The notes under the pieces: generated by a model | Seen by the model: only the letters and a program-made list of their open reading frames with translations | The model's database searches: none | Told to the model about the DNA's origin: nothing | Made by a program: the position numbers and the translations under genes | Part shown: piece by piece, positions 3-10,280 of the stretch | Layout of the letters: each line of letters opens with the position of its first letter | How positions within the stretch are numbered: position 1 is the first letter of the stretch | Origin: Bacteroidota bacterium | Lineage (GTDB): Bacteria; Bacteroidota; Rhodothermia; JANXDC01 | Length of the DNA stretch: 64,000 nt | Direction of reading: 5' to 3' | Assembly (NCBI GenBank): GCA_025998875.1 | Contig: AP024675.1 | Coordinates: 947,589-1,011,588 of the forward strand

Positions 3-971
3 ATCCGGGCCTATCGGGCCGACATCGATGCGTTGCCGGTCGCCGATGCCAAACAGGTGCCCTACGCTTCTTCCAGGCCCGGCGTGGCCCATCTGTGCGG
101 ACACGACGCCCACACCGCCATTGCGCTCGGTGTGGTGCGGTATCTGCTCGAGCACAACGACTGGACCGGCACGGTACGCGTGCTCTTCCAGCCGGCCGAG
201 GAGCCCACGCCCAGCGGCGCCCCGGAAATGGTGCGGGCAGGAGTTATGGAGGGGGTAGAGGCGATCTATGCCGTGCATGTGGATCCCGCTCTGCCCGTGG
301 GGGTTTTCGGCTTTCGGGCCGGTCCCCTGAGCGCGGCCACTGACAGCGTGCGTCTTCTGCTGCGCGGTCCTCGTACCGTGCATTCGGCTCGTCCCCATGA
401 AGCACCCGATCCGGTGTGGGCGGCCGTGCAGATCGCCCAGCTCTGGTATGGGTTTTCGGGGCGTGTGCACGATGCGCGCCAGCCGGCCGTATGGGCGCTT
501 ACGTACCTGCAGGCGGGTTCGGCCCTGAACGTGGTCCCGGATCGGGTCGAGCTTGGGGGCACCTTGCGCACCACAGATCCGGTGGCCCGAGAGCATTGGC
601 ATACGATGATGCGGGAAAGCGCCCGGGCGCTGGCCGCCACCTTCGGACTGGACTGTGAGCTGCACGTGGCGCGTGGCGCCCCCCCTGTGTGGAATGATCC
701 GCGGCTGATTGCACATGCCCGTCAACTGGCCCTTGCGCTCTTCGGACCGGAGGCGATAGCCGAACTGGAACAGCCCAGCATGGGAGGGGAAGATTTCTCC
801 GTTTACCTGGAATATGCTCCGGGTGCTATGGTTCGAGTCGGAACCCGCTCCGGTCCGGAGACGGGTTTCGAGCTGCACGACAGCCGCTTCGATATCGATG
901 AAGGCGCCCTTCCCCTGGCCGTTTGCCTGATGGGTGAGGTATTGCGCCGCTGGCCCCCTGAAGCCCCATGA
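3..971 (+). CDS. M20-family amidohydrolase, 5' end outside window
   Basis: The C-terminal ~322 residues of a zinc-dependent M20D-type amidohydrolase or aminoacylase (N-acyl-amino-acid or hippurate hydrolase group), which cleaves N-acyl amino acids to the free amino acid and a carboxylate. The reading frame is already open at the window edge. It shows RADIDALP near the start, CGHDAHTA, the metal-binding and catalytic stretch FQPAEEP, and GGEDFSVY near the C-terminus, all family landmarks. The central dimerisation domain lies between FQPAEEP and GGEDF. No signal peptide can be judged because the start is missing. The stop overlaps the next gene's start as ATGA, so the two are probably co-translated. 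The exact substrate cannot be told from sequence. Confidence 0.9.
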   Translation: MRAYRADIDALPVADAKQVPYASSRPGVAHLCGHDAHTAIALGVVRYLLEHNDWTGTVRVLFQPAEEPTPSGAPEMVRAGVMEGVEAIYAVHVDPALPVGVFGFRAGPLSAATDSVRLLLRGPRTVHSARPHEAPDPVWAAVQIAQLWYGFSGRVHDARQPAVWALTYLQAGSALNVVPDRVELGGTLRTTDPVAREHWHTMMRESARALAATFGLDCELHVARGAPPVWNDPRLIAHARQLALALFGPEAIAELEQPSMGGEDFSVYLEYAPGAMVRVGTRSGPETGFELHDSRFDIDEGALPLAVCLMGEVLRRWPPEAP

Positions 972-6811: not shown

Positions 6812-8548
6812 TCAGCCGGAGGCTTTTCGGGCCGAGATCCATTCCATAACCCGCTCCTCCAGGGTGGACAACGGGATGCTCCCGGCGCGCAAGACCACGT
6901 CGTGGAAATCGCGCACGTCAAAACGACTGCCCAGCTCCGTTTCGGCTCGGTGCCGGAGCCGAAGGATCGTGAGTTCGCCGATCTTATAGGCCAGGGCCTG
7001 TCCGGGCCAGGCGATATAGCGATCGACCTCGGTCTGGATCTCGTGTCGGGACAGGGCGGTGTGTTCAGCCAGAAAGGCGATAGCCTCCTCCCGGGTCCAG
7101 CCCATGGCGTGCAGTCCGGTGTCGACTACAAGCCGGCAGGCGCGCCACATCTCGTAGGTGAGCCGTCCGAACTCCCGGTAGGGATCCGTATAGAAGCCCA
7201 CCTCCTTGCCCAGACGTTCGGCATAGAGCGCCCATCCCTCCCCGAAGGCGGAAAAGCTTACAGAGCGCACAAAGGGATGCAGGTTTTCCAGTTCCTGCCG
7301 GATGGCGTATTGCAGGTGATGGCCCGGAACGGCCTCATGCAGCGTGAGCGCCTCCAGCACGTACAGCGGGCGACCGTCGAGCGGATACGGATTAACCCAG
7401 TAATATCCCGCCTCTGTGCCATCGGGTGGGGCGGGTATGTAGCGTCCCCCCGTGTAGCGTGGGGCCAGATATTCGGGTACGGGCGCGATCCCATAGGGTA
7501 GCCGGGGCAAGGAGCGGACGTGAAAGAGCCGGGGCAGGCGGCCATCCATCTGTTTGGCGATCCAGGCCGCTTCTTTGAGGAGCTCCTCAGGGCTGCGGGC
7601 ATAGAATCGGGGATCGGTGCGCAGAAACTCCAGAAACTCCGCCAACGTCCCCCTGAAGCCCGTGCTCCGCATGAGCGAGTCCATCGCTGCTCGGATGCGT
7701 CGCACTTCCTGCAGACCGATACGGTGCACCTCTTCCGGACTCAGGGCCAGCGTGGTGTAGTAGCGCACCAGGTGTTCGTAGTACTCTCGACCACCGGGTA
7801 CGGCTGAAATACCGATCGTTTTGCGTGCACCGGGCCGGTACTCGCGGGTGAAAAACTCCAGGAACAGGCGGTATCCATACTGCACCGAATCCCGGATCAC
7901 CCGGCGGGCCTCTTCCTGCAGGAGGGATCTCCGTTCTACCGGCACGGAGGGGGGGAAGCGGCGGAAGGGTGCAAAGAAAACCGTCTCTTCCGGGTCCGGG
8001 CGCAGGTGTCCTTCGATGGTAATCTCATAGCCTGTGAGGATGGCCTCCGGAAGGGTCCATCCTGTCCGGAGGCCTTCGCGCATTAGCGCGATATGCTGCC
8101 GTACCCAGTCCGGAAAGGCGCGCAAACGGGCCAGGTAGTTCTGGTAATCCTGCTCGTTGCGAAATGGCATCCAGCTGGGTAGTCGGGCAAAGGCGATATG
8201 AAAACCGTCGTCGGAGGTGATCGGGATGCGGTAGGCGCCGAACCGGTATTCGGCCCGTTCGTTTTCCAGCCAGTGCCGCAGTACGTCGTAGCTGATGCGA
8301 TCCTGCGGGGCGAGTCGCGGGCGGTCAATTCGCTGTAGCCGGTTCCAGAAGTGCTCGATCTGGTGATGGCGGCGGGCAACATCCTCCGGTCTTCGTCCCG
8401 GTAGCCGATCCGCCCCTTCGGAGAGCCCCTGATAGGTGGCCAGCAGCGGATCTTCTCGCAATCGAAACGCCCAGACAGCGTCCAGCAGGGCTCGCAGCGA
8501 ATCTGTCTCTGCCTGCAGGCCCAGGCAGGCGATGAGTACCCACCACAT
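6812..8548 (-). CDS. DUF885 family protein, predicted secreted metallopeptidase
   Basis: A 578-residue protein of the DUF885 family, whose members are believed to be zinc peptidases or related hydrolases. The hallmark HEAVPGHHLQYA lies at about residue 400, followed by SFSAFGEGWALYAERLG, also family-typical. The first ~14 residues (MWWVLIACLGLQA) look like a short signal peptide, so a periplasmic or surface location is likely. The ATG at 8548 has AAGGAG nine nt upstream; a start 63 nt further out would place charged residues before the signal and is rejected. It is the first gene of a leftward operon with the TPR lipoprotein and DUF58 genes. The substrate is unknown. Confidence 0.85.
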   Translation of the reverse strand: MWWVLIACLGLQAETDSLRALLDAVWAFRLREDPLLATYQGLSEGADRLPGRRPEDVARRHHQIEHFWNRLQRIDRPRLAPQDRISYDVLRHWLENERAEYRFGAYRIPITSDDGFHIAFARLPSWMPFRNEQDYQNYLARLRAFPDWVRQHIALMREGLRTGWTLPEAILTGYEITIEGHLRPDPEETVFFAPFRRFPPSVPVERRSLLQEEARRVIRDSVQYGYRLFLEFFTREYRPGARKTIGISAVPGGREYYEHLVRYYTTLALSPEEVHRIGLQEVRRIRAAMDSLMRSTGFRGTLAEFLEFLRTDPRFYARSPEELLKEAAWIAKQMDGRLPRLFHVRSLPRLPYGIAPVPEYLAPRYTGGRYIPAPPDGTEAGYYWVNPYPLDGRPLYVLEALTLHEAVPGHHLQYAIRQELENLHPFVRSVSFSAFGEGWALYAERLGKEVGFYTDPYREFGRLTYEMWRACRLVVDTGLHAMGWTREEAIAFLAEHTALSRHEIQTEVDRYIAWPGQALAYKIGELTILRLRHRAETELGSRFDVRDFHDVVLRAGSIPLSTLEERVMEWISARKASG

Positions 8549-8600: not shown

Positions 8601-8620
8601 GGCAACCCCATTCGGTTGCC
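8601..8620. repeat. Inverted repeat GGCAACC / GGTTGCC over the speD -33 element
   Basis: A perfect 7-bp repeat with a 6-nt spacer. The right arm contains the TTG of the predicted speD promoter. Because the repeat is symmetric, the left arm places a TTG on the other strand facing the DUF885 gene. A near-copy with the same GCAACC/GGTTGC core stands at 58829-58849. It could be an operator or simply two back-to-back -33 elements. Confidence 0.5.
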
Positions 8621-8647
8621 CTTTAGGAACGGGTTTTCGTATACTTG
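8616..8647 (+). promoter_or_regulatory. Predicted promoter for speD-speE
   Basis: TTG at 8616-8618, a 21-nt gap, then TATACTTG at 8640-8647 (7 of 8 matches to... the TAnnTTTG box with one substitution). The spacing equals that of the three tRNA promoters in this window. Transcription would start near 8653 and leave a leader of about 275 nt. Confidence 0.55.
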
Positions 8648-8928
8648 CGGCGCCTGCCGAACGGGGTCGGCTATTTTTCAGGGGAGCCTGTCCGTTCGTG
8701 TCTGGCATGCCGACCTCGAAGCATGGAGGCGGTGCAGCGCTAGCGGCTGGTGGATCGGTTTTAGGGGATGTGAGCCAAGCGTTTCATCTCTGAACGTCTT
8801 CCGGCATCCCCCCTACCCTTCGTCCACCGGTCCGCGGTTGTATGGGTGATAGCTCCCCTGCGGGGCTATCAAAACATGCAATTTTAGACCCCGTCCGCAG
8901 GGCGGGGGGTGCGGAAAGGAGGGTAGCG

Positions 8929-9321
8929 ATGCAGGCTCTCGGAAGACAGATCCTGGTCGAGTTTTACCAGTGCGACCCGGAGGTGCTGAACGACGAGGCC
9001 CGAATTCGCGATATTCTCATCGAAGGGGTGCGCCGTTCAAAGGCCACGATCGTGACGGATTCCTTCCATTCTTTCAGTCCCCATGGGGTAAGCGGGGTCG
9101 TCGTGATAGCCGAGTCGCACGTGGCCATACATACGTGGCCGGAGTATGGCTATGCGGCAGTGGATATCTTCACCTGCGGGGAGACCATCGATCCGTGGGT
9201 GATCCAGCGGTATTTGCAGGAGCAGTTTCGCTCCCGGAACGTCTCCAGTATGGAGCTTAAACGGGGACTGTTTCCGGAGCCCGTGCGGCATAAGCCGGCT
9301 GAGGTGGTTCAGGCGGGCTAA
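8929..9321 (+). CDS. speD: S-adenosylmethionine decarboxylase proenzyme
   Basis: A 130-residue class 1B prokaryotic AdoMetDC that makes decarboxylated SAM, the aminopropyl donor for polyamines. The proenzyme self-cleaves between E62 and S63 in AESHVAIHTWPE; S63 becomes the pyruvoyl group. H68 and C83 complete the active site, at the same numbers as in the Thermotoga enzyme. The ATG at 8929 is preceded by AAAGGAGGG and matches the family N-terminus; a frame reaching back to 8842 would add 29 unrelated residues. It is followed 80 nt later by speE, so the two form the polyamine operon. A long leader precedes the gene. Confidence 0.96.
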   Translation: MQALGRQILVEFYQCDPEVLNDEARIRDILIEGVRRSKATIVTDSFHSFSPHGVSGVVVIAESHVAIHTWPEYGYAAVDIFTCGETIDPWVIQRYLQEQFRSRNVSSMELKRGLFPEPVRHKPAEVVQAG

Positions 9322-9401
9322 TCCCGGATCGTTCGGGCGAGGTTCGGGGGGCGGTTTGATCCGCCCCTTTGATGTTTTCGGAGTCCTGGGTGAGGAGAGC
9401 G

Positions 9402-10280
9402 ATGAGCACAGCCAAGTTCTACCAGATCCAGTTTACGGAATACTGGGAAGGGCGCACCGGGCAGACCTTCGGCGTAGAGGACCTGCTCTTCAGTCGGCGC
9501 AGTCCATACCAGCACGTGCAGGTCTGGCAGACAGACGCCTTTGGCCGGATTCTGACCCTGGACGGGCTGGTTATGATCACCGAGCGCGATGAGTTCGTCT
9601 ATCATGAGATGATCGTCCATCCGGCGCTGTGCCTGCTGAAAAACCCCAAACGGGTGCTCGTTGTGGGCGGTGGGGATGGGGGTACGGTTCGGGAAATTCT
9701 GCGCTATCCCGACGTAGAGGGGGTGGATCTGGTGGAAATCGACTCTGTCGTTATCGAGGCGGCTCGGTGTTTCTTCCCGGAAGTGGCTTCCGCCTTCGAT
9801 GATCCGCGCCTGCACGTGCATGTGGCCGACGGGGTGCAGTTCGTGCAAAGCGCCCCGGCGGGATACTACGATGTGGTCATCGTCGACTCCACCGATCCCG
9901 TGGGGATCGCAGAGGGGCTTTTCGGGGAGGATTTCTACGTCCAGGTGGCTCGTATTCTGACCGCCGAGGGGGTGCTGGTGGCTCAGACCGAGTCGCCCTT
10001 TGATCGGCTATTTCAGCAGACCATCCAGGCGGCGCACGGTTTTCTGCGCCGTCTGTTTCCCATCGTAACCATGTATCTGGCCTTCATTCCCTCGTACCCG
10101 ACAGGCATGTGGTCCTTTACGCTGGCCAGCCGGATCTATCATCCGGTCCGGGATTTTGATCCCGAGCGCGCCCGAGCGCGCATCGCCCCTTTTCAGGAGA
10201 TGTTGCGCTATTATAACCCGGAGGTGCATGTGGCCGCTTTTGCGCTGCCCAACTTCGTGCGGCAGCAGCTGGAGGGCTAA
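9402..10280 (+). CDS. speE: Spermidine synthase (polyamine aminopropyltransferase)
   Basis: A 292-residue enzyme that transfers the aminopropyl group of decarboxylated SAM to putrescine or a related acceptor. It has the N-terminal beta domain (about 1-60) and a Rossmann methyltransferase-like domain with GGGDGG at 89-94, an acidic ribose contact EID at 112-114, and the catalytic loop VDSTDP at 161-166. The ATG at 9402 has GAGGAGAG upstream. It sits directly behind speD. No putrescine- or agmatine-producing gene lies in the window, so the acceptor (putrescine, or agmatine as in Thermus) is open. The stop shares CTAA with the convergent epimerase gene. Confidence 0.95.
   Translation: MSTAKFYQIQFTEYWEGRTGQTFGVEDLLFSRRSPYQHVQVWQTDAFGRILTLDGLVMITERDEFVYHEMIVHPALCLLKNPKRVLVVGGGDGGTVREILRYPDVEGVDLVEIDSVVIEAARCFFPEVASAFDDPRLHVHVADGVQFVQSAPAGYYDVVIVDSTDPVGIAEGLFGEDFYVQVARILTAEGVLVAQTESPFDRLFQQTIQAAHGFLRRLFPIVTMYLAFIPSYPTGMWSFTLASRIYHPVRDFDPERARARIAPFQEMLRYYNPEVHVAAFALPNFVRQQLEG

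Follow-up and report, generated by a model that had tools for sequence, protein, structure and literature searches.

A conserved structured RNA of about 190 nt lies directly before speD (positions 8737-8928 of the window, that is, of the whole 64,000-nt stretch of DNA analysed here); its existence is nearly certain, and we found no earlier description of it. Comparative sequence evidence suggests that this leader is probably a new class of translational riboswitch, which would exert feedback on AdoMet decarboxylase and polyamine synthesis. The features of the locus are listed in Table 1.

Table 1. Predicted features of the speD-speE locus and its leader, in window positions.
Feature	Position	Strand	Remarks
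Bacteroidota-type promoter	8616-8647	+	TTG (8616-8618), 21 nt, TATACTTG (8640-8647)
GCGCUAGCGG single strand	8737-8746	+	5′ of P1; 9 of 10 positions invariant in 17 loci
P1, 5′ strand	8747-8754	+	partner 8823-8830; long-range closing helix
P2	8764-8770 with 8805-8812	+	C8808 bulged; encloses P3
P3	8777-8785 with 8792-8800	+	peripheral; inside P2
Anti-Shine-Dalgarno CUACCCUUC	8813-8821	+	between P2 and P1 3′ strand; 9/9 against 8918-8926
P1, 3′ strand	8823-8830	+	partner 8747-8754
Joining strand P1-P4	8831-8837	+	RCUGCGG in most relatives, UCCGCGG in the window
P4	8838-8844 with 8875-8881	+	variable tip hairpin 8848-8870
P5	8889-8907	+	GC-rich hairpin
GGGGGUGC	8905-8912	+	invariant in 17 loci; overlaps P5 3′ strand in the window
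Extended Shine-Dalgarno GGAGGGUAG	8918-8926	+	target of the anti-Shine-Dalgarno
speD	8929-9321	+	AdoMet decarboxylase proenzyme, 130 aa
speE	9402-10280	+	polyamine aminopropyltransferase

Relatives were gathered by a SpeD search and their upstream DNA was compared, which revealed the blocks GCGCTAGCGGCTG, CTTCCGGC, CTACCCTTC, CAGGnCTGCGGTTG, GGGGGTGC and GGAGGGTAG-ATG common to the oriented sequences. Because MAFFT, applied to 12 leaders, misaligned P2, we built a covariance model from three sequences to realign the rest. This model recovered the other ten leaders with E values of 4e-11 to 4e-19, and about thirty further speD loci yielded nothing convincing; in Balneolales, Cloacimonadota and other Rhodothermia, the leader of speD lacks the motif. 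A second model of 12 sequences was run against 245 genomes of the class, 394 of the phylum, and the order and family of HRbin21. Ten of the 245 genomes carry the leader, as do all six genomes examined in the HRbin21 family, which is Kapabacteria-like (this name and Rhodothermia are used as labelled in the database records). Altogether, 17 distinct leaders come from the window's genus, Rhodothermus, one further family of Rhodothermia and one Kapabacteria-like family. All 17 directly precede speD-speE, and no credible match was found anywhere else in the genomes searched. A second match in the window's own genome (E 0.06) was rejected, as it falls in protein-coding sequence that resembles pyruvate phosphate dikinase by eye. 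The leader-bearing loci form one SpeD clade (support 86/89) that spans two classes, and on this phylogenetic pattern the operon may have passed from one lineage to another along with its leader. One locus, L003 (JANWVM010000008.1), is labelled as the cyanobacterium Gloeomargarita; because its SpeD and leader group with the window's genus, this contig is probably misbinned. It also contains a borderline adenosylcobalamin riboswitch (384-527, minus strand), which scores 49.4 bits, just under the cut-off of 50.

SpeD and SpeE were identified with the NCBIfam models TIGR03330 (151 bits) and TIGR00417 (295 bits), respectively, and speE lies downstream of speD in all 17 loci (partly covered in L003). 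Because the upstream neighbour, which encodes a protein of approximately 580 residues for which NCBIfam gave no match at E 0.001, runs in the opposite direction (6812-8548, minus strand), the leader region is a divergent intergenic region. The promoter named in the original prediction is present there, and a consensus scan returned the same position as the single sigma-70-like site in the scanned region. In 11 of the 17 loci, a TAnnYTTG box, the Bacteroidota-type −7 box, precedes the speD ATG by about 260-330 nt (259-289 nt in the window and seven relatives, 331-333 nt in three Rhodothermus loci); it was not seen in the other six. Its position is kept in L082, a member of the sister genus, as well as in L003 and several Kapabacteria-like loci. 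Because this box is conserved so far upstream, the long leader proposed originally no longer rests on inspection by eye alone and gains comparative sequence support. In the predicted transcript-start region ahead of the conserved fold, the window (8653-8736) and loci L003, L001 and L124-L126 contain a hairpin specific to the lineage, in many cases with a U-rich run behind it, such as GGUGC...GGUGCUGUUUGUC in Kapabacteria-like loci.

The leader folds better than its dinucleotide shuffles (z = −2.9). The three foldable stretches that the original prediction had described are parts of the conserved fold, with 8764-8811 corresponding to P2 and P3 (the latter missing in L088 and L125), 8848-8870 to the tip of P4 and 8888-8910 to P5. 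That hunch was a good one; P1, P4 proper and the anti-Shine-Dalgarno strand facing the ribosome site were absent from the description, and the decisive elements, P1 and the anti-Shine-Dalgarno, are among these. Aligning the speD leaders of relatives, as had been proposed, yielded a conserved fold with covariation in 17 loci. In this alignment, which was fitted to the covariance model and hence leans towards the structure and whose homologues form one SpeD clade, 96.4% of paired cells can pair compared to 38-52% when the partners are slid by one to three columns, and both sides change in 20 of 37 pairs (P1 5/8, P2 6/7, P4 4/7, P5 2/7) compared to at most seven in the slid controls. Because kinship among the sequences inflates such counts, we used a phylogeny-aware null in a simplified R-scape-like test, in which substitutions are re-dropped on the tree and pairs are scored by an APC-corrected G-test with a cut-off of E < 0.05. 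Nine of the 37 pairs covaried significantly (three in P1, five in P2 and one in P4), with a background of 29 significant among the 14,706 pairs that do not belong to the structure; in P5, the top pair fell narrowly short (E 0.065). On this evidence, the predicted helices P1, P2 and P4 can be taken as established and P5 as supported.

Across the 17 loci, 48 columns are invariant, 30 of which are unpaired, and they cluster at 8737-8746, 8813-8821, 8830-8837 and 8905-8912. The leader shows features expected of riboswitches, namely, a conserved structure, covarying helices and conserved unpaired bases. The number of invariant unpaired bases exceeds the needs of a mere stability element, which bears on the reading of the leader as an RNA thermometer or a plain, ligand-free mRNA-stability or folding element of thermophiles. 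A hot-spring or thermophilic origin does apply to Rhodothermus and to several MAG sources, and GC-rich stems and a pairable Shine-Dalgarno sequence would suit such an element, but a thermometer does not need invariant loops, yet the 30 unpaired positions are kept across two classes, and the RNA is tied to a single operon; we consider this reading improbable. The main rival is a protein-binding leader, by which a trans-acting RNA-binding regulator, or SpeD or SpeE itself, would control translation in the manner of ribosomal-protein leaders, where translation is controlled by protein binding. Association with one operon and a large, conserved multi-helix fold would fit autoregulation equally well. 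However, neither SpeD nor SpeE is known to bind RNA, and the invariant unpaired bases, 30 in all, gather around P1, a pattern more characteristic of ligand-binding pockets; we regard a protein as the effector as rather unlikely.

The anti-Shine-Dalgarno and Shine-Dalgarno strands are complementary at all nine positions in the window (one G-U pair included) and in 15 of the 17 loci in total, with 8/9 in L002 and 7/9 in L126. A duplex scan gave the anti-Shine-Dalgarno, or the adjoining 3′ strand of P2, as the best or near-best partner of the ribosome site; by chance, 2-12% of shuffled leaders contain a 9/9 match to the Shine-Dalgarno at some point along their length. The anti-Shine-Dalgarno abuts the 3′ strand of P1, with 0-2 nt between its end and that strand, and this arrangement would be that of an H-type pseudoknot. 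The anti-Shine-Dalgarno and Shine-Dalgarno strands are both nearly invariant and their changes are one-sided, so that there is almost no covariation signal; only this constancy and the one-sided changes support the predicted pairing. The 3′ strand of P2 could also pair with GGGGGUGC (8/8 in 14 of the 17 loci), and a switch could possibly adopt this pairing as its alternative state; we keep it as a mere possibility because matches between C-rich and G-rich strands arise easily.

In the riboswitch that we favour, P1 and P2 would present the single strand CUACCCUUC, which would pair with GGAGGGUAG, the ribosome site some 100 nt further downstream, and the resulting pseudoknot, with P1 stacked on the Shine-Dalgarno helix, would hide the ribosome site. 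A pathway metabolite, for which a polyamine (e.g., spermidine or spermine), AdoMet, decarboxylated AdoMet and methylthioadenosine are candidates, would be bound at the invariant bases surrounding P1 and would stabilize the pseudoknot, so that synthesis of AdoMet decarboxylase would be switched off when this metabolite is plentiful. We infer a small molecule as the signal, as well as its identity and an effect by which binding would turn speD off. Under transcription attenuation, the leader would instead decide whether transcription terminates or reads through, and access to the ribosome site would not be the controlled step. Terminator-like sites do occur at 8656-8671 (five pairs, near the leader start) and at 9346-9369 (nine pairs), but the interval from the conserved fold to the speD ATG contains no terminator with a T run, and the first site precedes the fold and has no T run after it in the sister L082. 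With only five pairs, this first site was rejected as a terminator, and we assign attenuation a low probability. The second hairpin lies between speD and speE, and in Rhodothermus loci (e.g., L083 and L084) the corresponding gap likewise contains a hairpin, then T-rich sequence; given these intergenic hairpins, speE may be partly uncoupled from speD.

The earlier statement that the leader contains no known riboswitch motif agrees with Rfam 15, which returned only chance matches in the leaders of the window and eight relatives at gathering and permissive thresholds and hence no family. SAM-family models left the leader unmatched even at E ≤ 10 in the window and E ≤ 0.5 in the eight relatives, and the SAM-II/III/IV/V/VI, SAH, SAM-SAH and preQ1 models of Rfam 15 likewise found no match in it. 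In SAM-II, SAM-V and preQ1-II riboswitches, the ribosome site lies within the second stem of an H-type pseudoknot. The speD leader probably works in a similar way, whereas the aptamers of these classes are much smaller, differ in sequence and have no Rfam match here. The odc1 motif of alpha-proteobacteria is similar in being a structured leader of a polyamine gene that contains a pseudoknot and sequesters the ribosome site, but it comprises one long hairpin, belongs to ornithine decarboxylase and has an obligatory conserved upstream ORF of 11 residues (PMC8632094); no conserved upstream peptide overlaps the main start in the speD leader. Control of speD through a leader peptide from a short upstream ORF, as in eukaryotic AdoMet decarboxylase mRNAs, appears very improbable indeed. 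Short ATG frames exist in the leaders, and a 56-codon frame from −95 is common to the Rhodothermus group, but start, frame and peptide are not shared across lineages, loops of variable length separate the conserved segments, and a comparison of the upstream ORFs between lineages found no common peptide.

The only spermidine riboswitch that we found described in the literature is a variant of SAM-I, known from 13 examples that precede polyamine-synthesis genes, speD and speE among them (PMC10853860). It resembles the speD leader as a cis-regulatory RNA before polyamine genes with proposed pathway feedback, and it differs in its four-stem SAM-I aptamer and in acting by transcription termination where tested, whereas the speD leader has no SAM-I match in Rfam, another layout and a candidate pseudoknot at the ribosome site. 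We found no account of the speD leader in the main texts of openly available RNA-motif papers, one of which treats other polyamine genes only, nor of a Rhodothermus riboswitch among the titles listed. Of the original proposal of a regulatory RNA that senses SAM or polyamines, the new RNA itself is upheld by conservation, covariation and exclusive linkage to speD-speE, while sensing of SAM or a polyamine is suggested by that linkage, which points to AdoMet and polyamine metabolism, with SAM-family models, including the parent of the published spermidine class, unmatched. Because speD-speE is the single gene context, the ligand cannot be triangulated. Aminopropyltransferases of Rhodothermus marinus produce spermidine, spermine and thermospermine (PMC11107197), which makes several polyamines candidate ligands. 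Tentatively, and with somewhat less than even confidence, we propose that the leader is an independent, non-SAM-I class selective for a polyamine (spermidine, spermine or thermospermine) or for decarboxylated AdoMet, acting through a pseudoknot that would hide the ribosome site.

Selective sensing of polyamines by RNA is disputed, as earlier claims were judged unconvincing and a single rare class, derived from SAM-I, has been reported (PMC10853860). Being unrelated and tied to AdoMet decarboxylase in two bacterial classes, the speD leader would add a second case that is independent of the first, in the form of a defined RNA of about 190 nt that is testable at the bench and comes from bacteria with enzymes for the synthesis of spermidine, spermine and thermospermine (R. 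marinus, PMC11107197).
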